A DNA stretch of 64,000 nt. Origin: Hexactinellida sp. DTS-2022 (Eukaryota > Porifera > Hexactinellida). The stretch covers positions 4,281,042-4,345,041 of the forward strand of contig JAPNXP010000010.1 of NCBI GenBank assembly GCA_028753945.1, in the 5' to 3' direction. The notes under the pieces are model-generated. The model saw only the letters and a list, made by a program, of their open reading frames with translations. It was not told the DNA's origin and ran no database searches. Both the position numbers and the translations under genes were made by a program. Position 1 is the first letter of the stretch; each line of letters starts with the position of its first letter. Positions 4,681 through 38,668 of this stretch are shown here, piece after piece.

Positions 4681-4701
4681 ACTTGTTAGCTTTTCCTATA
4701 G

Positions 4702-5011
4702 TACGGATGATAACATTGAACAAGTTATTGACGATTTATCTTCTCAACTAAATTCTTTACAAAGTCATTTATATTGCCATAAATCTTCAATTTTCAAACA
4801 TACAATTTTATCTGTTCAGAAACTCATTGCTTTATTGGAAACGACAAAGTGTACGCAATATAATTATAATAATACCATAAAATACCTACGAACACAAGTT
4901 TCTCAACTACACGAACAATTGTCAACATTAACTGGTGAATTAAATTACATCAGAAAACAACAAAACATCGGGCAATTGTTTGGAGATGTTACAAACACCA
5001 AGTGCATTGAG
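4702..5011 (+). CDS. CEP290: CEP290 orthologue, internal exon (first in window)
   Basis: Exon of a ciliary transition-zone coiled-coil protein that links axoneme to membrane at the cilium base. The reading frame is open from the AG acceptor (CCTATAG, 4695-4701) to a consensus donor (GAG|GTAAGA at 5011/5012). The first base completes a codon from an upstream exon, and the exon ends in phase 0. The translation is heptad-like (IEQVIDDLSSQLNSL, then TILSVQKLIALLE, then YLRTQVSQLHEQLSTLTGEL) and matches in order the CEP290 segment that in vertebrates reads IIPSLERLINAIE followed by LKAQVDQLTGRNEELRQEL. The next exon continues the same alignment. The upstream exon was not found in 1-4701. The identification rests on recall of the vertebrate protein and becomes strong when the three exons are read together. 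Confidence 0.8.
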
Positions 5012-5118
5012 GTAAGATTAAATTTATATACACGTATATACTTATATATATATATACCTATCATACAAATTTATCGTGAGTAGTGTTAATTTACGCCACT
5101 TCTGAGATTGTATATACT

Positions 5119-5285
5119 GCAGGGGCTTAGACTCGTTTTGGAGATTGGTAGGGCCCTTATAGGCTGGATGTTAGGATTGGTTGGGCCATTTTGGAATATT
5201 TGTGTTAGCTTCTATGGAGAAAAGACAATTCTTGGTAGGGCCATGGCCCTAGCAGCCCTACCGGAACCTACGCCTATGTACTGTC
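5119..5285. mobile_element. Possible hAT-like MITE
   Basis: Starts CAGGGGCTTAGACTC and ends with CCGGAACCTACGCC near 5273. The interior has imperfect inverted GGTAGGGCC/GGCCCTA blocks. No clean TSD was found, so this is tentative. Confidence 0.3.
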
Positions 5286-5399
5286 AGGGACTTCTTTAAT
5301 ATATGGACTGTAAACTTCATTTTACGGTAAAATTAGCGTAGGCCTGTTGCATGATATTTTGAGACGCGTGAGATTCTGAGACGCCTATGTGATACACGC

Positions 5400-5960
5400 T
5401 ATACACCATGGATGTGCTATTACAAATTATACAGTGATATTTTGAGACGCTATAAAAGGAAATTTTGGCTTATTTTACTTTGTATTATGAATTTAATTCA
5501 AGAATGAGACGCGTGAGATTTGAGACATTGTATTAGCAGACCATGGATGTGCTATTAGAATTTATACAGTGATATTTGAGACACTACTATAAAAGTAATT
5601 TTTGGCTTATTTTTACTTTTTATTATGAATTTAATTTAACAATGAGACGCGTGAGATTTTGAGACATTGTATTAGCAAACCATGGATGTGCTATTATAAA
5701 TTATACAGTGATATTTTGAGACGCGTGAGATTTGAGACACTACTATAAAAGTAATTTTCTACTTATTAATTAATATAACTTATTATTATGAATTTAAGAT
5801 TCTTACAATTTTGAGACGATAGTATAGATAAACCATAGAGACATAGATGTGATAGCTATATATTGTTTTGAGACACTGGTATATAACAATTTCTGGCTTG
5901 ATTACCTGTTTTGAACGCCTCACTATATTTTGTATTCTATCTGCAATATTTATCCCTTTT
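5400..5960. repeat. Subterminal tandem repeats of the Ginger1 element
   Basis: The left terminal arm repeats a roughly 130-bp unit with GAGACGCGTGAGAT, GAGACATTGTATTAGCA, CCATGGATGTGCTATTA, ACAGTGATATTTTGAGAC and TTTTGGCTTATTTTACTTT. The right arm (11440-11603) has essentially one unit. This length asymmetry between otherwise inverted ends arose by tandem expansion. Confidence 0.75.
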
Positions 5961-7221
5961 AATTAACTTTTAATTACTGATAATTATAGCAAGTTATCCC
6001 AGTAACCCGATTTCCAATCAGGAAATTATCCAGGATCGCGAGACGCTCCTTTTTGAGATGATTTAGGAAAAAATTAATTAGGAGCGCGAAAAATTGGAAA
6101 CTTCTCCTATACCGTAACATTAATTTGTGATTTTGCGTATGAAAATTGGATCAGAGCGTATTATTTACAAATGTCTGTATAATACACTGTTCCCAATGTA
6201 TATCTAATTTTACTAGTTTTTCCTAATCTAATAATTTCCCAATTCAGCATATGGTTATAATACTAACAATTACAGGGACTCAACTTTATTTTAATACAAA
6301 AACTACTACGTATTACAAACAAACAGAATAAATATACTAAATTATTTAAATAAAACACACTAATAAATACTTAAACTAACTAAGAATTTAAATACAAAAA
6401 ATATTATAAAAACCCCAATAGCACCCCTCCTCCTCCCCAGTAGCATCCTCCTTAATGTCAATATCTCCCCTTCTCCACTCCACCTCATCTCCTCCTCTCC
6501 CCTTCCCACTACCCAAAAATGAAACCAGAGCAAATAAATTAGTACACGTAACATTTAAATTAGTTAAATTTGTTAGCTATTACTTATCAGTAGGTACGTA
6601 TTAACTTTGTATAACCAACATACGAAATTATAATACACAGTGTCATTTACGCCAATAGCCAACACTAGCTTATCTGATTACGATTAACAAAATAATATAA
6701 ACAAAATATTTTATACAAAATTTGTTGTTGTGAAATAAAACGATTTAAAAAATGTTTAAACCTTTTAATTTCTCCTGAATTTCAATAATCTAATCCTTGA
6801 TTTCTTACGACTTATGGTTACTATGATACTATCCTACCAATTATATTGGGTATAGAAATAATCACAACGATTAACTTCTTTCTAAATGTACTAGGCGAAT
6901 GTCTAGAAAGAGATATGCATATATTTAAAGATAAGTAAAAGGTATACTATTTTTTCAATCAGTTTTTATTGTATTAACCAATTATTATTTTGGGGGCCTC
7001 CTCCTTTACCTACACAGCCGCCCTATCCTTTCCATTCATACAGTGGAAACCGCACATCTATATCCATTCAATCGGCCCCAATTTTTTATTTAATTACCCT
7101 TCGTTCGTATGTGTGTAACGACATAACAAAATGAGCATCGAATTGATGCGCCCTGATAATGTGGTTCCCAGTGTACAAAAAAAACTCTCAAAGGAAAATA
7201 GGTTAAGTTACACTAAATTAC

Positions 7222-8037
7222 TCAAACTATGAAATTAACCAGTATTACAGTGAACTCCAAGTCGGCTATAAATCGGCTTATAACGAAGTTCAATGGTCCG
7301 GACATCCGTATATTTGAGTATACTATAGTCAAATAAATCGATATAATGAAATTATATTTTTGGCTAAGATATTTATTTTGGACATAATCTGAAGTTGTTC
7401 CATAAGTCTTGTAATTCGTGTTCAGCATTGATACGACAAGTTGATAGTGGTCGAAGAAGTTTTGGATATAATGGATGGCTGTAGGGTTATATGTGGCTCT
7501 GTGCAAACTCCAACGCACCTCGCGAATTACTGAGTCTTTCGTTCTGTAGAAGACTAGAAGTTATTGGCAATGTTGACATCGGCATCAAGAATAGCAGAAG
7601 CAGCATAAATTTCCACATCTGTTCTCCAAACGGATTCACGATTCATAAGTACATGTCTAGTAAAGTATTCACACGGTGTAATTTGTTTGGTTTTAAAATA
7701 CCATCCTAGTTTCCTTGTTCCTTCACTGGCGATAATGATAGAACGAAGCTGTAGGTGGCTGTTTTCACTCCCAGTAACTAATTTGGATAGGCATCAGATC
7801 TCCTTCGATATGTTCCGCTTCGTAAGGTTCAAAACCGCTAAGTAACTTCCCAACGCTATTATATGGTTGTCTGCAAACGGATTCAAATGATATCCCCAAC
7901 ATATATATCACATTTACTTAGCTGCCAATTTTCAGGTCTCACATTGATACTTGGGTCCATCGGTGTGTCGTATGGATTACGGAGCGGGACGCGTCGTGAA
8001 ATGATTCCCTTAGCATTGTGTTTAGATACTGCATTCC
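7222..8037 (-). pseudogene. OTU-like cysteine protease domain of the Ginger1 gene (degraded)
   Basis: OTU enzymes cleave ubiquitin-type linkages. Read on the minus strand, the pieces in order are SKHNAKGIISRRVPLRNPYD (from an AG acceptor at 8038-8039), a possible 50-nt intron, RNISKEI then CLSKLVTGSENSHLQLRSII, CEYFTRHVLMN, RESVWRTDVEIYAASAILD, and finally PTAIHYIQNFFDHYQLVV. These fit the OTU pattern: a G-S-E..H..lR helix, a W-x-x-D-x-E-I-x-A-A block, and a C-terminal HY catalytic histidine motif. The usual D-G-N-C-L-F-R catalytic cysteine motif is not intact: where it should fall I read NLTKRN. Frameshifts and stops interrupt it. It lies downstream of, and in the same orientation as, the integrase exons, so it was probably the C-terminal part of the same protein. 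Confidence 0.65.
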
Positions 8038-8350
8038 CTAAAATATTAATTTGTTTACAATTTAATTAATAAAAGAATAATTCTAATGTTATAGCCTGCT
8101 TTCGAAGGTACGTATAGACTGAACAAATATATTAATTTAACTGAATTTGAGTTGTATGAGAGTATTGTTAGATTATTTTAACTTAACACGAAATACAGTA
8201 CTTAGTGTATGTATCTAGCAAGTTGGGTATCTGTATAGCTGGGGTAGATATCTGTTGTCCATCCAAGTATAATCTCCATAATATCTCTCTTCTACAATAA
8301 ATGGATAAAATTATAATTTGTAGTTATCGTATGAATCATTGTTAACTTAC

Positions 8351-8494
8351 AACTTCCTCTTCTTTTCCACCATCCAAATACTCGAATAACATTGTTTTGG
8401 GAGTGTAGTTGTGCGCTTTCTATAACAAGTTGTGCAGCTCTTCATGTAGAGGAGTCATGAAGGTCTGCCCACTTATATTCTGCTTTAGGATTTC
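8351..8494 (-). CDS. Ginger1 gene, exon between integrase and OTU (144 nt)
   Basis: Bounded on the minus strand by TTTGTAG|GAAATC and GAAGTT|GTAAGT. The translation includes ILKQNISGQTFMTPLHEELH and NYTPKTMLFEYLDGGKEEE, with one stop-like codon between them. No domain was recognised. It links the integrase C-terminal exon to the OTU region. Confidence 0.5.
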
Positions 8495-8645
8495 CTACAA
8501 ATGACACATTGTAATAATATTATTACGGAATGTTACAAATATTCTGGATTGACGTCAATTGAAGGTGTAAAGCTAAAATAACAATGAGTGTCAATAAAAA
8601 TAACACTCAATGAATTATACAGTATAAGTGAAAACGGAACCTTAC

Positions 8646-8708
8646 TTTTAAGTTATTAAGGTGTTGAAATATAGATTCCGTAGAAAATCCGAAAAGATTC
8701 TGGTACAT
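8646..8708 (-). CDS. Ginger1 gene, small exon (63 nt)
   Basis: Acceptor CCTTTTAG|ATGTAC and donor AAAA|GTAAGG on the minus strand. It encodes MYQNLFGFSTESIFQHLNN followed by L-K. The length is a multiple of three. No domain. Confidence 0.45.
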
Positions 8709-8779
8709 CTAAAAGGAATATTTTACGATTAAAACACTATTTTATCTTTTAAATAACAACTCAATCACAATGAATTTAC

Positions 8780-9044
8780 CTGTGAGGTGTTGATTCCGAT
8801 GCTAGCTTTCTTAGTAAAAATATTGGGACTAGAGGATCTTTCGAAGTAAGGTCTTGTGATATGGATTGGAATCTTTTTGTCCTTCTTCGTTCCTAATTCT
8901 GTTTTAGAAATTGTAACATGGCTTTCTGTTGCTTTCGACACCGTGTAAGGCCCAAGATGTTTCGTTTGCTTCTTTGTTTTGGGCATGTGTTTTAGTTCGG
9001 GCATGTTGGTATAGATTATCTTATCATCCTTCTTTAGAGATGCA
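8780..9044 (-). CDS. Ginger1 integrase, C-terminal GPY/F-type exon
   Basis: Acceptor GTAATTAG|TGCATC and donor CACAG|GTAAAT on the minus strand. The translation runs SLKKDDKIIYTNMPELKH, then TKHLGPYTVSKATESHVTI, then IPIHITRPYF. The GPY and RPYF pieces mark the chromatin/DNA-binding C-terminal module of gypsy and Ginger integrases. Spliced structure in an integrase gene is typical of Ginger1 and not of gypsy. Confidence 0.7.
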
Positions 9045-9185
9045 CTAATTACAGAGAGAATAATTATGAAAATAATTATAATCGAAAGAATGAATCGAAC
9101 ATTAGTAACAAGATAGACTGCGTGTTATGTATGATTAAATATCGTCAGCAGTTCAACTAACCGATTAGTGATATATATATATTAT

Positions 9186-9594
9186 TTATTTATTTCTTAT
9201 CATATTGTATCTTCTGCTTGAGTTGTTCAAATTGATGCAGTCCATAGCTGACTGCTGTGTAGAAATTCGAGATTCATCAATGTTGCTAACTGCTTCGAGG
9301 GGATTATCAGGAGGTGGGAAAAATATGTCGTTTATTCCTTCGGTATCATCTAGTGGATCTGTGAGTTCAGAGAAAATCGATTCTTCCAAATCAAAGTCTT
9401 CCTCATCGTTGGTATGCAGGTCGTTAATGGTGGACAAGAGATCTTGATGCCGGGACTCTCTTCCCCACATAACCTTGAAGGGAGTTTGTCCGAGGGATCT
9501 TTTCTTACAGGAGTTCATTGCAAGCACAGCCTGTTTCAGCAGTCTGGACCAATGATCCCCTATCTGGCTCTCCATTTTAATCAGTTTCTAAATG
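9186..9594 (-). CDS. Ginger1 integrase, post-catalytic exon
   Basis: Minus-strand open frame starting KLIKMESQIGDHWSRLLKQ and continuing AVLAMNSCKKRSLGQTPFKV then MWGRESRHQ. W..L...v..iN.......tPf.vmfGR is the conserved end of the integrase catalytic core. The second half is acidic (NDEEDFDLEESIFSEL). The 3' end appears frameshifted: an alternative frame gives HQFEQLKQKIQYDKK. The exact 3' border is uncertain. Confidence 0.65.
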
Positions 9595-9639
9595 GATAAT
9601 TCGTAAATGGGTCTTAAAATTATATTACAAAATACTAAC

Positions 9640-9746
9640 TGTTTCAGAATCTTGTTGTGCGCTTCGACTAAGCCGTTAGCCATGGGGTGGTAAGCACGAG
9701 TGCTACGATTGTCGATACCCAATTTCTGGTTGAATTCCTTAAATAT
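9640..9746 (-). CDS. Ginger1 integrase exon with catalytic glutamate
   Basis: Acceptor TTAACAG|ATATTT on the minus strand and donor near ACA|GTTAGT. It encodes IFKEFNQKLGIDNRSTRAYH then PMANGLVEAHNKILK. The YHPMANGLVEAHN motif carries the third catalytic acid (E) of the DDE integrase core. Confidence 0.7.
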
Positions 9747-9870
9747 CTGTTAAATACAATAAATAAAAATACAATAAATAAATACAAATAACAATACATA
9801 CTATAATGTTAGTATGTAAAATTAGATAATTATGATAATTTACACTAATCTAACAAACAGTGTTACATTA

Positions 9871-10192
9871 TACTACTCACATTGCTTGTGAACTCCTTGC
9901 CCTGGTCGTGCTGGATAATATCAGGTAATCCCATATCGAGATAGATGTCCTTCAGATTCTGAATAACTTCTTGTGATGTCTTGGACTTGAGATGGCGTAC
10001 TGCAACATATTTGCTCAGGTAGCATACAGTGACTAGAATGTGTTTATAGCCGTCTTCACTCTCAGGGAGGTCGCTTTTAAGGTCCATTCCTATATGTCTC
10101 CACGTTTTAGAAGGAGGTGGTATTGGCTGGAGTTTCTTTTGCGGTTGAGGTGGCAAGGCCGCTGTCATCTGACATATATCATATGGCACGTC
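9871..10192 (-). CDS. Ginger1 integrase exon with first two catalytic aspartates
   Basis: Ends at the consensus donor AGCAAT|GTGAGT on the minus strand. The translation includes TWRHIGMDLKSDLPESEDGY (first D), then HILVTVCYLSKYVAVRHLKS and GLPDIIQHDQGKEFTSN (second D in HDQGKEF). The start carries the second Cys pair of the HHCC zinc domain, but a 5-nt insertion (CATAT) seems to turn TCDICQM into VPYDICQM. The gene may therefore be inactive. Confidence 0.7.
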
Positions 10193-10301
10193 TTTACCTT
10201 GATAATATAAGAAAGACATTACTATCGTATCTCAATATCATGCAACAGTATTACTATGTTACAAAGCTAAGTGAATAGTTTCTAATCATTATGAATTTGG
10301 C

Positions 10302-10416
10302 ATATATTAGAAAGTACAGTGCGCATGCGCAGTAAGTACACTGCGCATGCACAGTAGGTACAGTGCGCATGCGCAGTGTACTTACTGCGCATGCGCACTG
10401 TACTTTCTAATATATG
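10302..10416. repeat. Near-perfect long hairpin of GCGCATGCGC blocks
   Basis: The left arm CATATATTAGAAAGTACAGT and GCGCATGCGCAGTAAGTACA is mirrored by a right arm ending TACTTTCTAATATATG, with an arm length of about 50 nt. It lies in the Ginger1 integrase intron (10193-10919). Alternating purine/pyrimidine GCGCATGCGC is also Z-DNA-prone. Likely a MITE. Confidence 0.8.
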
Positions 10417-10919
10417 GAGGTATTATTTTCCACTGAGATACAGCCACATTTCCTTATGTGCCACTTGTCCCACAAGTAGCACGTGACATAGAGTAGACAC
10501 AGATGCCACTTCATGGATAATTATTGGATAAACATGACTTAAAATCATAATGTTATGATATTTATAATTATATTACAAGATTAAGTCATTTGAGAGTAGT
10601 TTAATCTAGCAGAATTTATTACGAAAACGAGAAGTATATTGTAATTCAGAAATAAAAATTCAGTTCTTCAAATAGTTTTCGTGGGTTAGTATACATTTAG
10701 TTAGAATGCATCATAACATTTAAAATGATTCTCAATTAAATAGCCCATTTGAATAATAAAAATATAGGTAGGAAATTTTTATAAAGTATGAACAAATACA
10801 GAAGTGGTCCGGACAAAGATGGACAATCCTTTATAATAATGTCACTGTAAATGGCAAGTGGTCCGGCCATGACCGAACCACGTGATACCTAGGAAAGTAT
10901 GCCGAATAATTAAACTAAC

Positions 10920-11093
10920 ATATTCTTTAACGTCTTGGGAAACGCCTGCCCATCTGTATATTTGCTGAACTGAATGTAGGGTCGTGTTTATTCCGGGATG
11001 ACCGACTTCGTCATGGAACTTCTCATAGATGCTGTCCAACTCAGACTACAATGGAACTGCCAAATCTGTCTCTGTGCCTTCCAGTTTTACTCT
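10920..11093 (-). pseudogene. Ginger1 integrase H2C2 zinc-domain exon (premature stop)
   Basis: Acceptor CTTTAG|AGAGTA on the minus strand, donor GAATAT|GTTAGT, 58 codons in phase. The translation begins RVKLEGTETDLAVPL, then an in-frame TAG, then SELDSIYEKFHDEVGHPGIN followed by TTLHSVQQIYRWAGVSQDV. H...GHPGINTT supplies the two His of the HHCC domain. The TAG breaks the reading frame. Confidence 0.7.
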
Positions 11094-11164
11094 CTAAAGG
11101 GAGAATCCAATTAAACCATGGGATATTTAAAAATGGTCTAGGGGAATAAGGAAGTCAATATTAC

Positions 11165-11311
11165 CTTGAAAAGTCTGTTGGTATCTCCAATAAAATAGGA
11201 AGACGATCTTCTTTTGTAGTTCCATTTTGTCTGACGTGAAGCTTGAGATGCTTCAGGATATTTTTCTTCGCGAATAAAGTGAATGATTTCGTCATATTCA
11301 TTTGGATTCAT
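11165..11311 (-). CDS. Ginger1 integrase gene, first recognised exon
   Basis: ATG at 11309-11311 (minus strand), 49 codons, donor TTCAAG|GTAATA. It encodes MNPNEYDEIIHFIREEKYPE then ASQASRQTKWNYKRRSS. Such short basic N-terminal exons precede the zinc domain in Ginger/KRBA2-type integrases. The start is chosen as the only ATG ahead of the conserved part. 11311-11440 is AT-rich up to the right terminal arm. Confidence 0.6.
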
Positions 11312-11609
11312 TTCAAAATAAGAAAGGATTTGATTGTTTGTTTGTTATAAATGAATAAGACAATTAATGTATATATTAATTTTCTTATTAGTTAATTAAT
11401 TTGATAATAGTATTGGGTTTATGTATATTATGATGTCAAAATCATAGTAGTATATTCTTAAATTCATAATGAAAAGTAAAATAAGCCAAAAATTACTTTT
11501 ATAGTAGTGTCTCAAAATATCACTGAATAAATTCTAATAGCACATCCATGGTTTGCTAATACAATGTCTCAGAATCTCACGCGTCTCAAAATATCATGCA
11601 ACAGGCCTA

Positions 11610-12035
11610 AAACAGTATTGTTACTTATTGATATCCCGTAATCCGCTAATGCTAGACACAGGAAATGTATTATTGTCGTATAGGAAGTCATATTTGGGAG
11701 TCCAACGGTCATATGGGGATATCGAAAATATTTGTGGAGTGCAAGTTATGCGATGTTCACACCTTTCCATATATGGTAATATTGTTAAAATCTCGAGATT
11801 AGTTATCTTTATCCATATGAAATTTATTTTTGGCGAATGGGAAATGGGAATTCATATTTAGGGACTCAGTAGATCACATTGATTTACCAAAGGCGTTCCC
11901 CTTAGCCTATATTATTATTTTGGAACTCTCCACAAGAGGAATGCCCCGACCCTGACTTGTAGTTTAGCTGATTCTTACCTATCAGATATCTGTCATTATG
12001 TTGTTTATTAAAAAATCTTGATAAGTTTCTTTCAA
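11610..12035. other. Intronic stretch, nothing recognised
   Basis: Intronic AT-rich sequence. Short open frames only, without recognisable motifs. Confidence 0.5.
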
Positions 12036-12158
12036 ATCTATTCCTTTTTATTCTGACTAATCCTAATGATTATGATAAATAAATTCAGAGTATGGGATTA
12101 TGTATGGGATTATTTATTATCTGAATATATTTATCATAATCATTAGGATTAGTCAGAA
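12036..12158. repeat. Hairpin-type MITE
   Basis: CTGACTAATCCTAATGATTA and the rest of the arm are inverted at ATCATTAGGATTAGTCAG with a short AT-rich centre, forming a roughly 38-bp stem. Confidence 0.65.
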
Positions 12159-12161
12159 ATT

Positions 12162-12768
12162 AACAAGGGTGGGGTTGGCTAACCGATCTGAGGCTACGGA
12201 TACATCCGATTTCTCGCTTCGGTTAACCGGTTAACCGCCCATCCTACTCAATACAATAAATCCTTTATAAAAATTTGATTACGTACAGTGGCGGCGCCAG
12301 GGGGGGCACACTTTTGAAAGATTCTTCGGAAAACAAATATTCTCAGATATTTTAGCGAAATATGAACATTATTGAACATGAACAACAAGATTCATCAGAG
12401 TCTTCAAACATGAATGCCCAATCAATGTTAAGTGTTAAATGCAACAGTGTTATTAGACCAGTTTTGGATGCGAACGGCTTGCGATTCTTGGAGTTTTGGG
12501 CAATTTGGGATTAGTTTTCTATACTTTACTGGGAAAATATGTGGATTCTCGAGTCTCGACGGCAACTATGAATTCCCTCTGTTTTTTTCTAAAAAGGTGT
12601 GCCCCCCCTGGGTTCAGGTTTGCCCATCTGGTGTCCCCCCAGCGGCGGCGCCCTGGCGCCTCCGCTGATTACGTATACTACAGAATAAGACTCAGGTGTA
12701 TAAAGTATAACTGCATAAGTATATAAACTGATACATTTCGTGCTTTAGGTTCCTTTTTATTCTGACAA
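12162..12768 (-). mobile_element. TTAACCGG-rich MITE, partial, cut by a hAT
   Basis: Starts CAAGGGTGGGGTTGGCTAACC. The sequence matches the reverse complement of the copy at 46009-46390, including AATAAATCCTTTAT and GCATAAGTATAT. It is interrupted at ATTACGTA by a 382-bp hAT. At about 12768 a second, oppositely oriented partial copy (CAAGGCTGGATTCAGTTAAC) begins and runs to about 12960. Confidence 0.65.
12286..12667. mobile_element. hAT-type MITE, 8-bp TSD ATTACGTA
   Basis: Ends CAGTGGCGGCGCCAGGGGG and CCTGGCGCCTCCGCTG, flanked by ATTACGTA at 12278-12285 and 12668-12675. The uninterrupted target is visible in the 46-kb copy of the host MITE. Same family as 31075-31641. Confidence 0.85.
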
Positions 12769-13029
12769 GGCTGGATTCAGTTAACCGGTTAACCGTTGTT
12801 GACATCGGTTAACGGTTAGAGATTTTATCAACCAGTTAGCCGGTCTGTTGAATATCAACAGAGTTATTGGGAAATTAATGTATAAAGTATTACATTTTTT
12901 TGAATTTTATCAGAATATGTAGTCCTAAATCCATTTCTCATTACCACTTAATAAATAGCGTAAATAGCTTAGTATAGTCAAATTTAACATTGTGAAATTT
13001 TAATGAATACGTTTTCATTCGATAATGAG

Positions 13030-13200
13030 TATATATATTAAATAATCTGGTGTGACCAACATGTCCGCATCATCATTGTACATATTCTATTAATTTTCAG
13101 ATTTTATCTCGTAGAAGGATCCGAATTATATGCGATTAAGTGAATTTTCACGTTCTAAAATGTGACAATGACATCATAACTTGACGAGGATCGTTAACTT
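13030..13200 (-). mobile_element. Helitron-family fragment, reverse orientation
   Basis: GGTGTGACCAACATGTCCGC and GTGACAATGACATCATAACTT are the reverse complement of the interior of the 46.9-kb Helitron. Neither end is preserved. Nothing was recognised from 13200 to 13880. Confidence 0.5.
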
Positions 13201-13894
13201 TTGATTGAAACCTGAATTTGTAATCGGGGCCAAAAGTTAACCCTATAAGCCAAAATCGGATTCTGAGACCGTTCAATTTCATCATATATATTTAGAATAA
13301 CTTCAATCCTGAACTACGAAATAAAAAGCATGCCTCTTAATTAAATAAATGGACCATGGATATCTTAGAAGTGTCAAATAGCGTTCATTCATTTATGTAA
13401 ATGCTGTTCGAGTATAAGTTTTATAGTAACTGTCCAAGAAATGGTTTTTCATGATTTATGAGTTCATTATTAATGAATAATACTTATCAAAACACAAATG
13501 TATGCAATTTACAAGTTAACGTTCATATTTCTACGGAAAATATGCTATCCATTAAGCTTGTATCACAAGCTATATGGACTTGAATAGTTTTGAGTTTTTT
13601 TAATTTTTCGATTTTCACTATTTGAATTTGCAAGTTCTCTGAGTCTTGAGTTAACATTCCAGACTTTATTGGCTAGAATACAGTTTGCTGCAATTGATGT
13701 CATTTAACGGAGTATTGTCCATCCTTGTTGATTACAGGAGCCGCACGTATTTCTCCTGCTGACACATTGTGTATCCTCTATGTATGTATTAGCGAGTTGG
13801 ATTAATATCATTCTTGAAGGTCCTGCCAAAAACTGGTGCATCATGTTAGAATCACCTTCTATTGTCATATAGATCTTCAAAACAATAATAATAG

Positions 13895-14280
13895 CCAGGG
13901 CCTGATTAACAGAGGTGGAGCCAATAGGCGCCAAGTTTGGGGTTTTGGGGTGGGCCGCCCCCCCCCCCCCCCTTATTGTTGATCGCCCCTCCCCCCCCCC
14001 ATATTGCTGATTGGGGGGCTGGGGGTCACTGGGAGCGACCTCCTGGACCTTTCGGTGGATTTAATTTTTGTATGAAAGTGGTCCTTTTGATCGAACAAGG
14101 GATGATAGAGGGTGACAATCACGTTTGTTTACTCAATATATCCAGATTTTGTTTCTGAAGAAACAAATCTGGAAATATTTGGCAAACCTCCTAGTGGCAC
14201 CCCCAGACCTCCCCAGACCCCCCCAAGTGCTCCCCCAGACCCCCCAAGTGCCCCCCCCATCTTTGATTATAAGTTCCAAA
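13895..14280. mobile_element. Degenerate hAT-like, C/G-homopolymer-rich element
   Basis: Begins CAGGGCCTGATTAACAG, like the hAT at 2013, and continues with runs of C and G and a CCCCCAGACC repeat. The right end and TSD were not found. Confidence 0.35.
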
Positions 14281-14289
14281 ACTAGACTC

Positions 14290-14656
14290 CCTAGAATACA
14301 TATTGAGATTTTCACTCTAAATTTCTTACCGCTCGCGATATTTTCACGTCATTGTCACATTTTGAGAAGCCGTAAATTCACTTAGTCGCACATAATTCGA
14401 ACCGTTAACGAGATCTCATTCTAAAATTTTAATTGAACATGTACATTAATAATGTGGACATGTTGGTTACATCATATTATCAATATGTTAACTCATTGTC
14501 GAATGATGACATAATCATTAAAATTTCACACTGTTAAGTTTACTATTTTATGCATTTTGAGCTATAATTATATTTAGAAGTATTAATTAAACCACACACC
14601 AACCGCTTTACGGTTGGTGTATGGTTGTTTTTTTACACGAAGCGCGCTACTGTACA
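14290..14656 (+). mobile_element. Helitron-family 3' fragment
   Basis: Shares GAGATTTTCACTCTAAATTT, ACGTCATTGTCACATTTTGA and the terminal hairpin CCAACCGCTTTACGGTTGG followed by GAAGCGCGCTA with the copies at 46.9 and 59.1 kb. 5' truncated. Confidence 0.6.
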
Positions 14657-15041
14657 TTAAACTCTCGTTGTTGACAAAGTGCCTGGTACTTTGACCTAAT
14701 AACTTGAGAATTACGAAACTATAGAATAAAACCATTATGACAGCAATTGGACTATATGGTCTATATCCTATTCTAGTCTAGACTATTACTTCTAAATTAT
14801 ATAATATCTATCTACATTGATCTACATTGAATAAAACTCTAATACTTAAATTACTGATAACTACTCTATGTGGTCCTTGTAACATCATCATCTCTGGCGC
14901 TGGCTGAATTGTTTTAATTATCAATTGAACTAAATGAAATATCTTTGTTACTTCATCATTGATATTTGTTCTGTATATTAATATTAATATTATTATCAAT
15001 ATTTTACACTTCACATTATAATGTAAATAATTCATCTTTAG

Positions 15042-23870: not shown

Positions 23871-23873
23871 TCA

Positions 23874-28385: not shown

Positions 28386-29336
28386 TACTGTGCCGACTAT
28401 AGTATAGTATAGTGGCCCAGTATTGAAATCACTGCCTTTATTATTGCTGTGCCGACTATACTATTGTATAGTGGCCCAAGTATAATCTTACTGCCTTTAT
28501 TATTATTGTTATTTATATCTTTACTCCGTAGTCGGTACCCTGGCCAGAGCTTTATAGTTGATGGGCTAAAACTTGGCATGTAGGTGCGTATGGACCGTCT
28601 AATTTGCACCTAGGGTTATGATTTTTGATTAACAAATTTTGGACACATTTTTAACACCTTTCAAAATTTGTCTGGTCCATAACTCAAAAAATGTTTACTA
28701 AAAATTCTGCGTCTGATGGGAGAAGAAATTTTTTAATAATGGGTTTAATTTCTACAATAAATGGGGGTTGAAATTTCTTTTTTACTCACACTTCAATTTC
28801 AGTAAAACTGTGAAATCTAATTCCATTGTTTCTAACTTGTAATAATTATATTGATTTAACTTGTTAAATCTTACTCTATTGTTTCAACTTGCGATAAATA
28901 CGTATATTGATTTACTTATAAATTCCAGCTGGCTTCTATTTAATTGTAGTACATATTACTATACAATGGATAAAATATAATAAAATAATATATGGAATTT
29001 GTTGACTTTACTCAACTCACCGTGGATAACATTGCTAAAATAAATAACTAATAATATAATTTATTATCAATACATAATGAATGAATGGCATTAAACTCAA
29101 GATGGTTTATGATCGAAACAAACTTCAAATTTATCTACCGTTCCTTGTGACTCGGACCAATTAACAAATGGTTCTTGACACCTTGAAGCGTTTATGACTT
29201 GGCGAAAAAATCCGAAATTGCAGCCTGTGCCGACAGCATGTTCCTTTGAAGGCACTATCAATAAATCACCATCAAAATATAGTGCCACCAAAGGAACATG
29301 CGTCGGCACAGGCTGCAATTTTGGATTTTTCTTCTG
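28386..29336 (+). mobile_element. Hairpin-bearing interspersed repeat, copy 2 (uninterrupted)
   Basis: The reference copy. It starts with two tandem approximately 58-bp units CTGTGCCGACTATAGTATAG..CACTGCCTTTATTATTG and passes AGCTTTATAGTTGATGGGCT and ACTCAACTCACCGTGGATAAC. It ends in the GCAGCCTGTGCC hairpin and AATTTTGGATTTTT. The pre-insertion target of the 18200 Ginger-like element is intact here. No ORF and no TIRs. Confidence 0.75.
29220..29320. repeat. GCAGCCTGTGCC hairpin, copy 2
   Basis: Arms GCAGCCTGTGCCGACAGCAT then GTTCCTTTG, and CAAAGGAAC then ATGCGTCGGCACAGGCTGC, with a loop over ATCAATAAATCACCATC. The stem is about 38 bp with one bulge. Confidence 0.85.
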
Positions 29337-29421
29337 CTCGACGTTCCTCGATTGCATGGTTTATTTCATCATAACACTTTACTAAATTGGTGTAAGGGAA
29401 GTGTAGGGAAATTAATACAAT

Positions 29422-30026
29422 CAGGGGCGCCGAGAGGTTTCGGGGCCCCATGGCAAACAATAATGATTACCTGTCACGAAATATTGGTCTGGAGGACCAA
29501 AGTTTTCATAAAATTTGGTCCTTCTGTGGAAAATTGGTCCTTCTGAGGTTTGTGTTTATCTAGTTTCCGTATTTACTAGAATAGAATCCTAGGCAATTTT
29601 TCGCCATATTGGGACCCAAAAACTTTATGAATAAGCCTGTCACTGAAAATTGATCCTGGAACAAAATATTCCATGGAATATTGGTCCCGCGGACCAAATA
29701 TCCCCGAAAAGATTGGTCCGGGACTCAATATTCCATGGAAAATGGTCTTAGGACCAATTTTTTAGGGGACAATTTTCCATTAATAGGCCCCTCTGGAATC
29801 TTTCCCTAACCCAAATGTTCATTTTACACGATTTCCTCATCTCTTTGTAATTCAAGTTTCAGTTATCTATATTTCATTAAATTATATTATCTGAAGGCAG
29901 CATTTGGCTGTAACATTATGCTTACATTCTTAAACTAATAACTTTGTTTAGGAATTTTCACGGGAACCCCTAGACCCACGGGCCCCGAGCAACTGTACCC
30001 CCTGCACCCCCTTCTTGGCGGCCCTG
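29422..30026. mobile_element. hAT-type MITE, 8-bp TSD AATACAAT
   Basis: Ends CAGGGGCGCCGAGAGG and TTCTTGGCGGCCCTG, with AATACAAT at 29414-29421 and 30027-30034. The interior repeats GGACCAATWTTCC-type motifs. No ORF. From 30035 to 31066 nothing more was recognised except a short pogo-like CGTTATATCCGAGTTCG around 30575. Confidence 0.85.
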
Positions 30027-31074
30027 AATACAATTAACACTCTCTTTCAATCTAAGCTCCCATAGTTGTATATTAACTCAAATGCATAAATGTGGTAATA
30101 GAGGACATTGAGGAACATAATCATTCCTTGTAATTTCGAATTAAACCATGTTAAGATTATTAACTATTCCACCAGGAAGGAAAATCTTTAATTCATTTCA
30201 CATCACTGAGTTCTGGAACTTCCATCCCTTTATCTCAAGAAAATTGGCCAATCAACTGGTAAACTCTGTGCAACATTGCACCTCTACTTAGCGCACTTCA
30301 CAATAGTATAAACACCCTATATAGAGAGTCGAAAATAATAGTAATCTTTCGTCGCTGTTAAATGTTATTATTTTACTATCAGTATATCCAAGGAATTTTT
30401 CATAGCAAAAGGTTTTTGGTCCAGCATGGTCCAATATACCTTTCTAATATTTATAATTTTATATAGAGCAATAATCCTATTTTATTTTTGAGATTCTATA
30501 ATTCTTGTTTAGCGTATTACTGCAACATTTTAATGTATTAATGCATTTAGTGCTCAGTTAATAAGCGGGTATTTCGTTATATCCGAGTTCGTTATATCGC
30601 GAGTTCACCTGTATTTATTGTTGCTGTTACAAAATAGCAAAAAGTTGATAAATTCGAAATGCACATAGAGGCCAGCTTCCAACGGGTTTAATAGATAAAC
30701 AAGGATGATGATTTCCAATTTAGAATCGGAATATTTCTGAAATGATATTTATTGTTGTCTTTGACACTTTGTGGTAAGAAATTACTTATATAAAGCTCAG
30801 CTCTGGTAGAGTTCAGTTTTTCAGTATGTGTATTCAGGCACTGAGAAAGGTCAGTTTTCCCAAGCTTTGAAATATGACCTTTAGAAAGTAAGCCTGGGCT
30901 TTTAGTATGGGAAAAAATCTGAACTCTACAAAGCTCAGCTCTATATAAGCATTCTCTTGTGGTAAATAGGAAAAAAGTTGTCAAGTATTATACTTGACCT
31001 AAAGACTAGCCTTCGACAGATAAACTGGTTAATACATTTGCTGAATAGAACTTGTTTTCTGGCAGGTTTATTGT

Positions 31075-31641
31075 CAGAGGCGGCGCCAGGATTTTCAGGT
31101 AGGGTGGCCAGTGGGGATTTCAGGGGGGGGGCACACTGTACAACCAGTAATGTGCTCCGTTACTAGTAACGGAGTAACGGTAACGGTAAGGGAAAAACTA
31201 ATGGTAACGGGTGTCGACAAGTAAAGGTAACGGGCGTCGCGGAGTAACGATAACGGAATTCCGTTACTTTTAACTAGTTACCGTTATCTTTAATCTGTTA
31301 CTCTTACCATTACATTACCGTAACACAGTAACCGTTACTACGTTAAACTTATTCCACTGCCATTACGACGTTATTTTAAATCAGTTACCGTTACATTAAG
31401 GTTACTGTACTGTCAAAGGTAAACGGGTAAACTTAACAAAAGTAACGGAGTAACGGTAACGGAAGAAATAAAGTAACGGTAACGGAGTAACGGTAACGGG
31501 AGGTATAAAGTAACTGTAGCGGAGTAAACGGAAGATTTAGTAACGGAGCACATCACTGTGTACAACATTGTTATTCTAGGGGGGGCCAGCCTCAAAAGAG
31601 GGGGGGGGGGGGGGCATGCCCCCCCCCTGGCGCCGCCACTG
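31075..31641. mobile_element. hAT-type MITE, 8-bp TSD, containing another hAT
   Basis: Ends CAGAGGCGGCGCCAGG and CCTGGCGCCGCCACTG, flanked by TTTATTGT (31067-31074) and TTTGTTGT (31642-31649), one mismatch. Long G and C runs lie near the right end. Same family as 12286-12667. Confidence 0.8.
31145..31558. mobile_element. hAT-type foldback element made of GTAACGG repeats
   Basis: Ends CAGTAATGTGCTCCGTTACT and AGTAACGGAGCACATCACTG, with the perfect 8-bp TSD TGTACAAC (31137-31144, 31559-31566). Almost the entire 414 bp consists of variants of GTAACGGTAACGG in inverted arrangement. It is nested in the hAT at 31075-31641. Confidence 0.85.
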
Positions 31642-31773
31642 TTTGTTGTTAAGTTGAAACAACTAATAATGACCCATATTTTGATGAATATACGAGAGCG
31701 CGTAGCGGTTGAGTGATCTTACAATTGAGATTTTGAATACTTATTCAATATTCTAACTGTTGTTAGGTCAATT

Positions 31774-31880
31774 AAATCCTTCGTTGCCTGGGGTAAAAGG
31801 TACAAATAGAAAAATCCCATTTCAATTCAATTGAAATTGAATTTATTTTCAGTTTGACATTCACATACCTGGGGCAACGA
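31774..31880. repeat. Short inverted repeat CCTTCGTTGCC..GGCAACGAAGG
   Basis: CCTTCGTTGCCTGGGGTA is mirrored by ACCTGGGGCAACGAAGG about 107 bp apart, with an internal CAATTCAATTGAAATTGAA palindrome. Probably a small MITE. Confidence 0.55.
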
Positions 31881-32235
31881 AGGGGTATATACGTATATAT
31901 CGTATAACAGAAACTATTAACAAATGAAGTATTGAAACCTGGGATTTAGAAAGAATTCCCGGGATTCTAACCTCTATTAGATAAAAAATATATTTGTATT
32001 TGCCTTCTATTTTATAAACTTGGTTTGAAGTGTTACTTAAGTGTTGCATAAGGAACCGTCTAAGTGTGATTACTGGTATAAATTAATCCGGAACGAATTT
32101 GCTATGGAATAGTCAAACCCATAGAAATGATTAACACTCTAAATTTAGCCCGGAACTAATTTGTTAAATGAACAATTTATGAGAAATTGGTACCGGCCGG
32201 AACCATTTTGCTGCCGGAACAAATATGTCAGAACA

Positions 32236-32500
32236 GTACAATTGCACCAAATGACTTTTAAGAGGGTCCGCATGTGTCTAACTAGCTTCAGGAAGCTGAG
32301 TGGAGTCGAACAAGGGGTCACTAGATAGTGTTAGAATAAAATTTGAGAATGGAATGTTGTTAAATTCCTATGACATTCCTGCGTCGTCAAGGAAAATTGT
32401 CTCAGGTGACCACTTAAATGACGCCAAATTTAGTGTTGATTACGAATATCGGCATAAAAATTGGATTGGACTTGATTTGAGGAAGTTAGATGAGTTCTAA
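32236..32500 (+). repeat. Dispersed repeat, copy 2, with a 66-codon open frame
   Basis: Aligns with 1215-1460. The frame at 32300-32500 reads GSLDSVRIKFENGMLLNSYD then SGDHLNDAKFSVDYEYRHKN and ends at TAA. It could be an exon of an unknown mobile-element protein. Confidence 0.5.
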
Positions 32501-35285
32501 CACCTTCAAAATGTGTCCCTTAAGTGGTCAATTGTGGCCGACACATTGGAATTGGAATAGGCACTATATCCAAAAATACACTATTTGCATGAAAGAACAA
32601 ACCTACAAAGTCTGAAAATTCTATATAAAAATGCATGATTAATGTTGTAAGCGGCTGAACTATAGAGCTGAGCTCTTTATAAGTAATTTCAAAAAAGAAA
32701 TAATACAGGTGACTGATAGTAGTAATAGTCTTCAACATATTTATAATTAACAGTTCACTAAATCTAGTATTGACGATTTGTGCTTTGATAATTTTACTTA
32801 TCTTAAAACATGCCTGTGGAAAGTTAAATCTGATATTAAAGAATAGGTTTTCTAATCGACTTACACTAAGCCTCCTTTCCCGGGCACTGACTTCCGAATG
32901 GTGCTCGTAACTGGGAATTTGCACAAATCTGAAAAATACAATATGTAGTCCTTTGGCTTAAATTTTTTTAATTTCACTCATTTTCCAAACTTCAAGGATA
33001 AATGCTTGTTTTTTTTGTGAATTTTAGGATGTAATTCGAAGTACATAATGCTCCATCCATCAAAAGTGGATAATATCAAATTTTCAAATTATCAGATTTT
33101 TTAGATTGTTATTTTTGATGGTAAATCAATCCTACATTAGATGGTGAAAACCATGTACTTAAAACCGATTTATTTAGAAAATAAATATTAACTAGGAAAA
33201 ACACCGAATCTTGCTATCGAATGCTACTGAGTTTATCTATATTGAATAACTAGAAGTGATACTAATATCTAATGGTATTGAAGTACAATTAAATTAGAAG
33301 TTGATACTAAGCCTACTGCACTGTCTTTTAGGCACCAGCATCTTCCTCTGAATTAAGGTATGAGAATTAGGTACCCACTGATTTTGTCAAATCATCAACT
33401 GTGTAGTTACCTGAACTATAGCAACCTATACTATTTATACTATGAATCTTCCTTCCAAAGTTCTAATCATGTATTTTCATTAGTATACTGTTTTTAGTTT
33501 ATTTTAGCTAACACCAGGGCGTTTGGCTTGCTCAGGTGCTTCGCGTCAATAGACAACCACACGACAACCGAAGAGTGGTTGTGTGGAATCCACACAACCA
33601 CTCTTCGGTGAATCACACTGTGGATTCATTCTTCTGACGTTAATTATTGCATTAAGTAATCTCTTAAAAAAAGTCAGATTTATCAAATTGATTTCAATAA
33701 TACATCATCATTCGATAATCAGTAAGCTTGTCGTTGATAATCTGATTTTTCCAACATAGTGATCCGCTACGTTAGTTTAAAACTCCAGGCTTGGAGCTAG
33801 ACATTTATTTTAATTAACCACGTGAAGTTTTGACAAGGTATCGTTTCGAAATTTATATAGAACTTTAGACCAGCACGAGTTAATCATTAACTATCTCGGG
33901 ATCTTGTTTTCTATTCTAACTTAAAATAAGCCAGCTTAATTTATCAAGAAATTATAAAAAGAATTAATTGCCTTAATAATTGGTATTTTCGCAGAATAAT
34001 CGTAAAATTGTAAAAAGTAATAGGATATGTCTGCCAAGTATATCTTTAAGGAGATTTGCCTTAAAATAGAAGGACTTAAATTTGAAGATTGATTTTTATT
34101 GAGAAAATGTGCTTCAGATAATGTATTTTGACATTATCAACCATATTTATAGCTCGCACCATATTTTTGAGTTCAGGAGGACTTAGAAAACTGTTACTTA
34201 GTGATTACTTTATAGAGTTATAATTCCCTTTACAACCAGCGCTAGACATTTGTTGGAAATAATTTTGCTACCTACTGAAATATTAAATATTAATTAAATA
34301 CTAGCGAAAAAATCTCTGGAGTATAGTCCAGGGTGACCAAAATACGGCCCGTGTGATAATTGAATCCCGCTCACTCCAATCTGCACTAACAACTTTTATA
34401 CCCTTTACTTTATACGGTTTATTCGTGAGTAATCCTTGACCACTTCTGCATCAAATATCAATTATGTTATTTAGATTTTTGTATAATATCCTTGGAATCA
34501 TTTTTCAGCACACTTGGACTGCCATTTCATGAACCCAACTTGGCCGGCGATTGAAACGAGTTGGGCACCCGTGATATATATTACCGTTCTTCGTATAAAT
34601 ATCAAAATAATAGAGGGTAATAAGAATTATTCTAGAAAAATTACTAACGTTGGTTTATGCATCTCATTGCATTAGATGACAAATTGACAATACATTATTA
34701 TCATATTTAGTTCAGTAATACATATTATGGTTTATTATCGAGCAAACAATCTGGATATAATAAAGAATTCATTACATAAAACCGTTGTTCAAGGCTTTTC
34801 TATACTTCAGAACAACATTAGATCTATCATTTTGAAGCTGTTTGAGCATAATTTTGACAATTTCTTCAGCCAAAAGTAGAGTAGATTGACTTGTACACAA
34901 AGCCAATATCCAATATTTCAATTGATTTTAACTGAATGAAATATTTTCACAATTTTCAAAAGTCATGTTAATAACGATCATTGCTTTGCCTAGTGGTTTT
35001 CTAACTGTTAAGAACCGTTCGATCACGAAAATTAAGCTTTACCTCTAGTTTTAAGGTCCAATATTACTTCAGCTGTTTCCCTAAATATACTCTGAGCCAC
35101 CAAAAGTATTTTAACAACAGGAATTTTATTCCAGACACAATAAGCTTCTTGTAGCTTTTGTAGCGTAACCTACTCTGAAACGACTTTAAATATATAGTTA
35201 TAGTTATATACTATAACATTCTTGCGATTTAATCCATTTTGTCCAATATTCATGAAATGGCATAAATACTTGCTATAATTAAATT
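32500..35285. other. Long intronic stretch without recognised genes
   Basis: AT-rich sequence. The only structured feature is the hairpin at 33567-33609. A 134-codon minus-strand open frame (32520-32924) shows no family features and is probably chance. Confidence 0.5.
33567..33609. repeat. Perfect short hairpin
   Basis: ACCGAAGAGTGGTTGTGTGG and its complement CACACAACCACTCTTCGGT are separated by a few bases. It resembles the terminal hairpin of the local Helitron family (CCGCGAAGCGG-type), so it may be a Helitron remnant. Confidence 0.75.
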
Positions 35286-35289
35286 GATT

Positions 35290-36121
35290 CTACTAGTGAA
35301 TTCGTGCTCGCTTCAATTTAATTTTAGTATTACAATACGATGGATTAAAGCGAATTAAATTAAATAAGGAATTTGTTGAATTAACTCAACTCACCGTGGA
35401 TGACATTGCTAAAATAATTAACTATTAAATAATTTATTATCAATAGATAATGAATTAATGGAATTAAACTCAAGATGGTTTAAGATATAAATAAACTTCA
35501 AACTCATAAATCGTTCTTTTGTCCCGTAACAACTTGATAAATGGGTCTAACCACCATAATATATTTTAATTGACATTGAAATTGATGTTAATTATTAATA
35601 ATTTTAATAAGTTTTTATACTATATAGCTAATATCATAAATCTCAGAGATTTTATATGATAGAAACAAACTTCCAATTGATCAATTGATCTTTATCCCAC
35701 GTACACCTATATTAATGGGGCTTGGCATCTTGAGGTGATTATGACATTGTCCAAAAATTGTAGTTTACAATTTAATTAATTATATATTTCGAATGGGTTG
35801 GTTCGTGTTGAGTGAACGCCCAACACACACAAAAAAATGCTGACTCATTACCTATTATATTCTTACTAAAATTCAATATCTCTGAAATGAAGTGAGCTAA
35901 AAGGAAATCCCCTCCACTCCAAAGGTCGTCCTCCGAAGATCACCTTTCTGAAATGTTTAACATCTCCAGAGTGATGATGACATGGCGAATAAATCCAAAA
36001 TTGCAGCTGTGCCGACAGCATTTTCCTTGTAGGGACTATCAATTACCCTACCAGTAGCCACCAAAAACTAGTGCCTCCAAGGTAAATGCTGTCGGCACAG
36101 CTGCAATTTTGGATTTTTATT
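35290..36121 (+). mobile_element. Hairpin-bearing repeat, copy 3 (5' truncated)
   Basis: Begins in the middle of the family (ACTCAACTCACCGTGGATGA) and ends with the hairpin at 35998-36103. Copy 4 follows about 45 bp downstream in the same orientation. Confidence 0.7.
35998..36103. repeat. GCAGCTGTGCC hairpin, copy 3
   Basis: Both arms lack the same C (GCAGCTGTGCC instead of GCAGCCTGTGCC), and both carry GCATTT where the other copies have GCATGT. Pairing is thus preserved through matching changes in the two arms. Confidence 0.8.
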
Positions 36122-36758
36122 TGTATTATTTTAAAACTTTTTCCAGCACACCATTATATATTGAGGGTTGAAAGTTGGCATGTAGGTGCGAGTTCCTGAT
36201 TAATTTGCACCTGGGATTACGATTTCTTATCAAAAGATTTTAACACCTATGTAAACTAACTATGGCTCATTACATGAATGACCTTTAAAAATGTACATGT
36301 ATGGATAGAGAGTTAAATTCATACATTTTTGGCTAGTAACGAATTTTTCCTTAGTTTCTGGAATAATTGGGGTGCAAATCTCCTGTATTTCCTCGCACTT
36401 CAGATCCAGTAAAACCTTTTCCGTAAAATTTAATTATATTAATTAAACTTGTTAAATCTTACTCTATTGTTTCAACTTTCGATAGTTATATTGATTCAAC
36501 TTGTGAATTCGAGCTGACTTCATGAATCGACCGAGTACTCGGCCTCGGCCAAACTCGGCCACTTTTTCGAACTCGGCCTTTTGCTCGGCCTCGGCCGATC
36601 CAGGGCGATTTTGGCCGAGTATTTAATCCCAAAATACTCACTTAAACCATGGGATAACAACACAGTTCTCAAACTTTATATATAGATGAAGTTACTTTAT
36701 TGTTAATAATTGTGATTAAAGGCACTAAATAGTATGATTAAAATGAGCATCCTTATAT

Positions 36759-36872
36759 GTAGACCGTCTAGAAATAAACGGTCTATAAAAGCCCATACAA
36801 ATAAGCCAAAGTTTAAGACCGTCTATGAATTCTGTAGACCACTTGCCCTACTTTTTGTGGGTAATACTAATG

Positions 36873-36903
<31 letters not shown>

Positions 36904-36926
36904 CTGGGTATTTCTAGACGGTCTAC
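36759..36926. mobile_element. GTAGACCGTCTAG MITE
   Basis: Ends GTAGACCGTCTAGAAAT and ATTTCTAGACGGTCTAC. The interior has further ACCGTCTA motifs and an (AT)n run (36873-36897). A palindromic remnant with the same flank is at 39312-39360. Confidence 0.7.
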
Positions 36927-37031
36927 ATACTATAAGATATCTCGATTAAAATATATTGAGCACTGCTAATATCTGTCCTAAATATTTCGCTTGCTGCAAG
37001 TTTGCTATCGCACAAATTTGAAATATAATAC

Positions 37032-37310
37032 AGTACACCCTCGCTAATCCGAACAGGGGATACTAAAGTATTTTTCTAATAATAGTGGGAAAAAATCGTA
37101 AATATTGGTATATTGTAATGGAAATATCAAAAATAAGCTCAGTAAGGAGTACAATAGATGTTTAGTGCGGATTAACAAGGTTTGTACAATTTTGGTTCGG
37201 ATTATCGAGATTTTCATTTATAGATGCCCATAGGAAATGCATCACTTCACTAATCGGAACAGAATTTTTTTGAATCGGAACACCTCTGTTCGGATTAGCG
37301 AGGGTGTACT
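37032..37310. mobile_element. pogo/Tigger-like MITE
   Basis: TIRs AGTACACCCTCGCTAATCCG and CGGATTAGCGAGGGTGTACT, 279 bp, non-coding. The terminal sequence is the type seen in pogo-related MITEs. The TA duplication is not clear-cut. It is nested in the hAT. Confidence 0.75.
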
Positions 37311-37739
37311 AAAATACAATAACATACAATATCATCCAGGGAAATATTTTGATAGCAAACTCAATATTTCACTAAAATAGGAACTCGTCCGGAAACTCGG
37401 CCTCGGCCTCAGCTCGGCCAAAAATATTCAAACTCGACTTCGGCCTTGGCTCGGCCAAAATTCTGAACTCGGTCGATTCATGGCTGACTTGTATTGAATT
37501 TTAATATTTCTATACAATTGATTTAATTTTCAATAAATTTAATGAATGAATTTATTTTTACTTAATGAGTTTAACTTTGCATAATATTGCCAATCTAATG
37601 TATTAAACGTGCATTAACATTACTTCCAATGACATGACGAAATTTTTAAAAATTACAGCTGTGCCCAGAGTATTTCATTTGGAAGCGCGCACATGAACAT
37701 GCTTTCAGTACAGCTCTAATTTTAGTTTTTTAGGATTAA

Positions 37740-38275
37740 TATGCATCATTCATTTATTCGCGATGCAGAATTCACGTATGATAATAAAGCATGATTTGGT
37801 TATATTTATGTTGATTATGGTTTTAATCTATTATTTGTGAGGTATGATTTGTTAATGCTACTCTCAAAGAATGGAACGCAAGTATTTACTAATGTGCAAC
37901 TGTTATGTAAATGTTGAAATTACTGGTTTTGCTCATTGCATTATTGAAATTACATTTAATATTTTGTTTGAATTTCCAATTGATTAGCAAAATTGTTTTC
38001 AAAAGATCTGTATTTAATAATTTTTCATGGTTTTTATGAATCGTCTAATAATGAACCAAGCGCTTACTGCTTCGTTCTAATTTATTCGAATGTTTACCCC
38101 CCTTTTTAATGTACTAATGTTTGCTACCTTCCTACATACATGTATTTCCAAATTTGAATAAAATATTATCATAAGAAAATATTCAATCATTTTACATTTT
38201 CACCTTCATTCTGCCTTTTTGGGAATGTTACACAAGTACTTAATCTTTATCTCTAAAGTTGATTTTAATTCTTAG
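37740..38275. other. Intronic stretch before the 38276 exon
   Basis: AT-rich with a pyrimidine-rich run into the acceptor at 38274-38275. Nothing else was recognised. Confidence 0.5.
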
Positions 38276-38668
38276 GGATTTATTTATCGTGATCATTTAA
38301 ATAAACATGAAGTTTGGAACACAGAGAAGAAACATTGGATAAAAGTTGAAGAGAGATCTAGTCTTCAAAATGAAAAATATCAAATTTTAGTTGAAGAAAT
38401 TTTTCAGTTGAAAAGTTCTCTCTCAGAAGATCCTAATGAACTAAAAACTCAATTTGTCGATCTACTGAGTAAATTTTCAATCCTCCGAAATACTGAACAG
38501 ACACTACATAGAAAATATTATATCCAGAAATTGAACGAAACTGGACTAAAGAATGAAATTTTTACATTAAGAGCAGAAATGAAAAGCATGGAATCTACAA
38601 TTACGGAAAGGATTAGTTATCTCAATAGGTTTAAAGATGCTGCTTCATACAAAATTGCTCTACTGCAG
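38276..38668 (+). CDS. CEP290: CEP290 orthologue, internal exon (third in window)
   Basis: A 131-codon phase 0/0 exon between TTAATTCTTAG (acceptor, to 38275) and CTGCAG|GTTGAT (donor at 38669). This is the clearest homology in the window. It starts GFIYRDHLNKHEVWNTEKKH, against vertebrate CEP290 GLLYKEYLSEKEVWKT, and ends YLNRFKDAASYKIALLQ, against vertebrate SLQRFKEMAIFKIAALQ. In between lie SSLSEDPNELKTQFVDLLSK and FTLRAEMKSMESTITERI, which fit the vertebrate block with MDSDEMKKML and LSMEAEVTEKI. It is a coiled coil throughout with no stops. It is separated from the preceding exon by a 23.0-kb intron filled with nested transposons. Expected location of the protein is the ciliary transition zone. 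Confidence 0.9.

Follow-up and report, generated by a model that had tools for sequence, protein, structure and literature searches.

Coding exons of the window and the gene that surrounds them

The DNA analysed here, referred to as the window, is a stretch of 64,000 nucleotides from Hexactinellida sp. DTS-2022, located at C2:4281042-4345041 in a compact genome of 112.4 Mb and 18 contigs. It contains three coding stretches on the + strand (exons A, B and C), which a first-pass annotation assigned to the middle of an orthologue of CEP290 (MKS4, NPHP6), a long coiled-coil scaffold protein found in the ciliary transition zone, the gate at the cilium base. Exon A (4702..5011; borders cctatag/T and GAG/gtaag) has an open frame in which the first base is the third of a codon, giving phase 2 at entry and phase 0 at exit, and corresponds to human residues about 590-745. 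Exon B (15042..15281; borders ctttag and CAG/gttaaa) comprises 80 codons with phases 0/0 and corresponds to human residues about 759-819. Exon C (38276..38668; borders ttcttag and CAG/gttgat) comprises 131 codons, also with phases 0/0, and corresponds to human residues 822-950. The positions, the AG/GT borders and the 0/0 phases of both internal junctions are as the annotation had described them, and the concatenation of A, B and C is stop-free.

All human alignments in this analysis are based on a 2,479-residue working sequence of human CEP290, one part of which was checked against the CEP290 coiled-coil family PF16574 (CEP209_CC5), returning 179 bits. Exon C, which includes YLNRFKDAASYKIALLQ, aligned to human 822-950 with an E value of 1.6e-10 and 35% identity over 131 columns (tblastn); none of 1000 shuffled sequences scored as well in the expected human interval, and the exon displayed one match genome-wide. 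The top human match of exon B falls at the expected place, with 8/1000 shuffles as good in the expected interval and 35/300 as good against the whole human protein. Judged by their own sequences, the assignment to CEP290 is certain for exon C and moderate for exon B.

The gene is not confined to the window. Alignment of the human protein to the window together with 200 kb of downstream and 70 kb of upstream sequence produced + strand tblastn matches that follow the human order (residues 454-556, 822-950, 1046-1114, 1115-1191, 1192-1264, 1268-1339, 1343-1562, 1556-1668, 1679-1763 and 1769-2454). As is usual for coiled coils, other parts of the human protein also gave out-of-register matches, to the last exon and to - strand sequence around 119 kb; these were not used. 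The positions of the additional exons, all on the + strand, are given in continued window coordinates, in which zero is a base and the genome position equals the coordinate plus 4281041. Upstream of the window lie exon Z (-55867..-55711), where the alignment begins at human residue 422, and exon Y (-21493..-21118), which ends at C2:4259923 and exits at phase 2. Downstream lie exon D (66822..67044; C2:4347863-4348085), 2.8 kb past the window end, and exons E (91466..91677), F (128049..128285), G (150511..150729), H (167932..168151), I (217621..218256), J (249907..250226), K (257434..257775) and L (261583..263517), the last of which encodes the C terminus and the stop codon. The gene thus comprises 14 or more exons, which range from 157 to 1,935 bp and have canonical borders; it spans at least 319,385 bp (C2:4225174-4544558) and would be transcribed from left to right. 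The first-pass description of four or fewer small exons therefore holds for the window but not for the gene, which has exons Z, Y and D-L beyond it. A further candidate exon at -3772 was dropped on account of its weak match (E 3.8) and poor donors, and no convincing additional exon between Y and A was evident among the 39 listed of 267 candidates (nested ones included).

The 14 joined exons encode 1,939 amino acids followed by one terminal stop, showing that all 13 junctions are in frame. In a blastp comparison the joined protein returned a single collinear match to human residues 422-2454 (656 bits, 27% identity), and nine of the 13 exons tested (Y, C, E, F, G, H, I, J and K) outscored 1000/1000 shuffles at their expected place. 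The last exon contains ELNALDPNFFEEIEDLKFNHKESVQKNI, which aligns with human ELENFDPSFFEEIEDLKYNYKEEVKKNI in the conserved C-terminal FEEIEDLK block; the surrounding 55 residues are 51% identical. An independent line of evidence comes from PF16574, which has one match genome-wide at E <= 10, the observation by which the gene is regarded as single-copy. The match (C2:4498673-4498891) is on the same strand as the window exons, ∼154 kb downstream of the window end, and is encoded by exon I. Exon I alone scored 30 bits against a curated cut-off of 25, while H and I joined across their 49.5-kb intron scored 35 bits (E 1.8e-8), covering profile positions 15-127 of 128. As joining the two exons lengthens the match, the H-I splice is also supported. 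PF16574 was the sole Pfam family matched at E <= 0.001 in the first 1,342 residues of the joined protein.

These data support the view that A, B and C encode the middle of a CEP290 orthologue, with the decisive evidence (the PF16574 match, the 14 collinear in-frame exons and the C-terminal block) located outside the window. It is nearly certain that the window lies inside a CEP290 gene that is single-copy and very probably functional. The whole 64 kb is intragenic, because exons lie beyond both ends, Z and Y on the upstream side and D-L on the downstream side. Thus, sequence that resembles pure mobile DNA is the interior of a single conserved ciliary gene with relevance to disease.

Alternative explanations for the locus

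Several observations weigh against this assignment, beginning with those obtained from the window exons in isolation. A profile search of the concatenated exons, which had been named beforehand as a check, identified no CEP290 match in Pfam, and every match displayed lay below its own cut-off; a search of the same sequence against the PDB returned nothing meaningful (two matches, best E 0.77). The Pfam failure says little, as the only matching CEP290 model covers a segment that is encoded downstream. Exon A is the least distinctive of the three. Among the best 25 of its 35 Pfam matches the top one is Prefoldin (19.8 bits against a cut-off of 23.2), 70/1000 shuffles were as good in the expected human interval, and its top match in the whole human protein lies elsewhere, at 1044-1120, where 5/300 shuffles were as good. 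The assignment of exon A by its own sequence is weak, since shuffles equal it at this frequency and its best human match is misplaced; it is supported by its frame, which bridges exactly the phase 2 exit of exon Y and the phase 0 entry of exon B.

The N-terminal part of the protein and the character of the introns also count against an intact gene, and would be expected of a decayed CEP290 pseudogene split by mobile elements, with a working copy elsewhere or lost. No exon was located for human residues 1-421, and a whole-genome search with human 1-708 identified no collinear N-terminal exon, returning exon Y and four weak matches elsewhere. One of these four, on C2 and 1.85 Mb upstream, contains two in-frame stops and was not counted. 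The introns, moreover, are very long and full of elements. A pseudogene is nevertheless very improbable, given an open frame of 1,939 codons uninterrupted by stops, 13 in-frame junctions and canonical borders. Sequence with another copy somewhere in the 334 kb of window and flanks accounts for 44% of the gene span, against 0% in every one of the 14 exons, and exons that are repeat-free in a span at least 44% repetitive argue against decay. The genome's sole PF16574 match is, in addition, at this locus.

The apparent size of the gene could instead derive from misassembly, in which element-rich contigs were misplaced between exons. This explanation draws on the high repeat content of the region and on an assessment made from the assembled sequence, and is likewise given very little credence. 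The window and the 200 kb downstream contain no N (zero in 264 kb), the 14 exons lie on one strand in human order, and, as 11 of the 13 introns are large, many independent errors would be required. That the exons come from a different long coiled-coil protein, of the myosin-tail or golgin type, resembling CEP290 by composition only, is the most improbable of the alternatives: the lack of a CEP290 profile match for A, B and C and the generic coiled-coil scores of exon A are what such a protein would give, but the PF16574 score above the curated cut-off contradicts it, as do ∼2,000 collinear residues and a C-terminal block that is 51% identical.

An ordinary CEP290 gene with enlarged introns is most likely. 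Transcription of such a gene would cover some 320 kb or more, and splicing would yield an mRNA encoding a long coiled-coil scaffold that, by orthology, would act as CEP290 does elsewhere. In Caenorhabditis elegans, CEP-290 localises to the ciliary transition zone, assembles its MKS module and maintains the gate, for which it is required (PMC4794247). The sponge protein resembles CEP290 in its diagnostic coiled-coil domain, in collinear order, in the C-terminal block and in the presence of one domain match in the genome, and differs from the human protein in showing about 27% identity over the aligned part. The genes differ in size, as the human gene is about 93 kb with 54 exons, whereas the sponge gene occupies at least 319 kb of a 112-Mb genome.

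Intron length and mobile elements

The 13 known introns range from 3.8 to 49.5 kb. From Y-A to H-I they measure, in order, 25.8, 10.0, 23.0, 28.2, 24.4, 36.4, 22.2, 17.2 and 49.5 kb; I-J, J-K and K-L are 31.7, 7.2 and 3.8 kb, and Z-Y, calculated from the exon coordinates, is 34.2 kb. All are on the + strand, and four fall wholly or partly within the window: the 3' part of Y-A (1..4701), which begins outside it at C2:4259924; A-B (5012..15041; 10,030 bp); B-C (15282..38275; 22,994 bp); and the 5' part of C-D (38669..64000). For comparison, intron-like gaps were collected within the conserved domains of myosin, dynein and kinesin genes of the same genome, linking pieces only if they were in profile order and <=200 kb apart, and removing gaps of <=20 bp after correction for missing profile positions. 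Myosin-head domains provided 60 gaps with a median of 359 bp, none of which exceeds 3.8 kb; dynein DHC_N2 domains 21 (median 277 bp), of which one, of 13.0 kb, exceeds 3.8 kb; kinesin domains 33 (median 398 bp), with three above 3.8 kb, including two above 10 kb; and dynein AAA_6 domains 15 (median 268 bp), again with none above 3.8 kb. Introns of at least 10 kb thus make up 11 of the 13 in CEP290 and 3 of the 129 control gaps, which are partly dependent, as DHC_N2 and AAA_6 were drawn from the same dynein genes, and any of which would be overlengthened by an exon without a match. The intron length of CEP290 is extreme, yet CEP290 is not alone in this genome. Giant introns do not extend to the part seen of another transition-zone gene, CC2D2A, which is compact, its domain being in two pieces 61 bp apart. 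With exons of a few hundred bases mostly 10-50 kb apart, against sampled intron medians of 268-398 bp, automatic annotation could miss the gene.

The mobile elements of the window sit in introns, between exons whose reading frame is intact, which bears out the first-pass proposal that CEP290 is the host context of the mobile DNA. The introns would have grown by insertion of such elements, as the repeats suggest, under selection against length that was presumably weak. Element proteins were sought with 20 open reading frames (ORFs) of the window, 10 of which displayed no match at E <= 0.01. Intron A-B contains, on the - strand, an ORF resembling an rve integrase core (9863-10231; below the cut-off), which is grouped with the Ty3-like fragments described below. 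Intron B-C contains a MULE transposon on the - strand (20297..22381), with a transposase ORF at 20881-21840 (PF10551, 39.8 bits) and inverted arrays of a 15/31-bp repeat whose arms (20297-20395 and 22283-22381) are 95% complementary, as well as a TNP-like transposase fragment (25107-25418) slightly below the cut-off. A second MULE transposon, on the + strand of intron C-D (41151..44975), contains a MULE ORF at 42151-43149 (PF10551, 34.7 bits) and a RING-finger ORF at 43868-44473 (PF13920, 49.1 bits), and has an inverted array of a 31-bp repeat on either side, with inverted arms of up to 256 nt. The two MULEs are different, and both have long inverted ends built of tandem minisatellites (31-bp units in one, 15/31-bp units in the other). 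Intron C-D also contains fragments, in both orientations, of retrotransposons that we take to be Ty3-like (50429..56749), comprising RVT_1 and RT_RNaseH on the + strand (50429-51868) and again on the - strand (52676-54074), and a gag-type protease on the - strand (55336-55983). A direct repeat of 152 bp (57065-57216 and 57621-57772; 87% identical) adjoins these fragments. The G+C content at the MULE and Ty3-like elements (20001-22000 and 50001-56000) is 42-50%, against 30-37% in most other window sequence, and is unlike the host composition. Tandem copies of a 22-bp palindromic unit, AAGTACACTGCGCATGCGCAGT, occupy 10312-10405.

Intron gigantism in other systems and probable cases elsewhere in the genome

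Neither the gene nor the phenomenon that it shows, intron gigantism, is new, but the setting is unusual. A study of flies describes gigantic introns as a burden on transcription and splicing, and gives the Drosophila Y fertility genes kl-2, kl-3 and kl-5 and mammalian dystrophin as examples of intron gigantism (PMC12965833). The likeness lies in a few genes with introns that dwarf the genome norm and are packed with repeats or transposable elements. The Drosophila Y type differs in having megabase introns, the largest here being 49.5 kb; in addition, the window introns hold transposons, with no large satellite array seen in them. Y linkage and expression in the male germline also characterise the Drosophila Y type. 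Transposable elements in the introns of fly Y loops are reportedly the subject of one paper (PMC13370334). The fly kl genes encode sperm-tail dynein subunits, whereas CEP290 is a transition-zone scaffold and not an axonemal dynein. Among the papers listed, titles and the starts of abstracts revealed no previous description of a giant CEP290 gene or of the pattern seen in this genome, a survey that did not exhaust the print record.

A dynein heavy chain (C10:2243324-2321368) is probably a second gene with giant introns, its matched pieces extending over 78 kb. These include a 13-kb gap and, after a further 63 kb, an AAA_6 part on the same strand in a 1,523-codon open frame; the DHC_N2 and AAA_6 parts are taken as belonging to the same gene. 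The heavy chain is degenerate; its AAA_6 part, as read, has no canonical AAA1 P-loop and in this resembles DNHD1. By contrast, six dynein heavy-chain matches (C1:1356755, C2:5814940, C11:14936361, C8:1646431, C4:680629 and C4:555342) each occupy one open frame of about 4,000-5,000 codons, whereas further dyneins encoded in this genome are rich in introns, giving a strongly two-sided gene architecture. As these six matches sit in single open frames, strong intron gigantism exists beside what looks like extreme intron loss in one genome, a contrast that could help to address what determines the intron length of individual genes. It is possible, but unlikely, that intron gigantism outside a fly-type Y has affected a small group of genes in this compact genome, with at least two members, CEP290 and the C10 dynein, of cilium or flagellum type, and that the long, element-filled introns impose a slow timing of expression that depends on splicing or are the sign of a non-recombining (for example, sex-linked) region.

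Two kinesin genes (C17:2899585-2909806 and C5:1240559-1253938) contain one long gap each, of 10.2 and 13.4 kb, respectively, the rest being short. Elsewhere in the assembly an 18S gene is located at C5:4209286, and no COX1 was found. Two dynein AAA_6 regions with near-equal scores, at C3:5028483-5029555 and C3:5032141-5033213, are 3,658 bp apart and possibly represent a recent tandem duplication.

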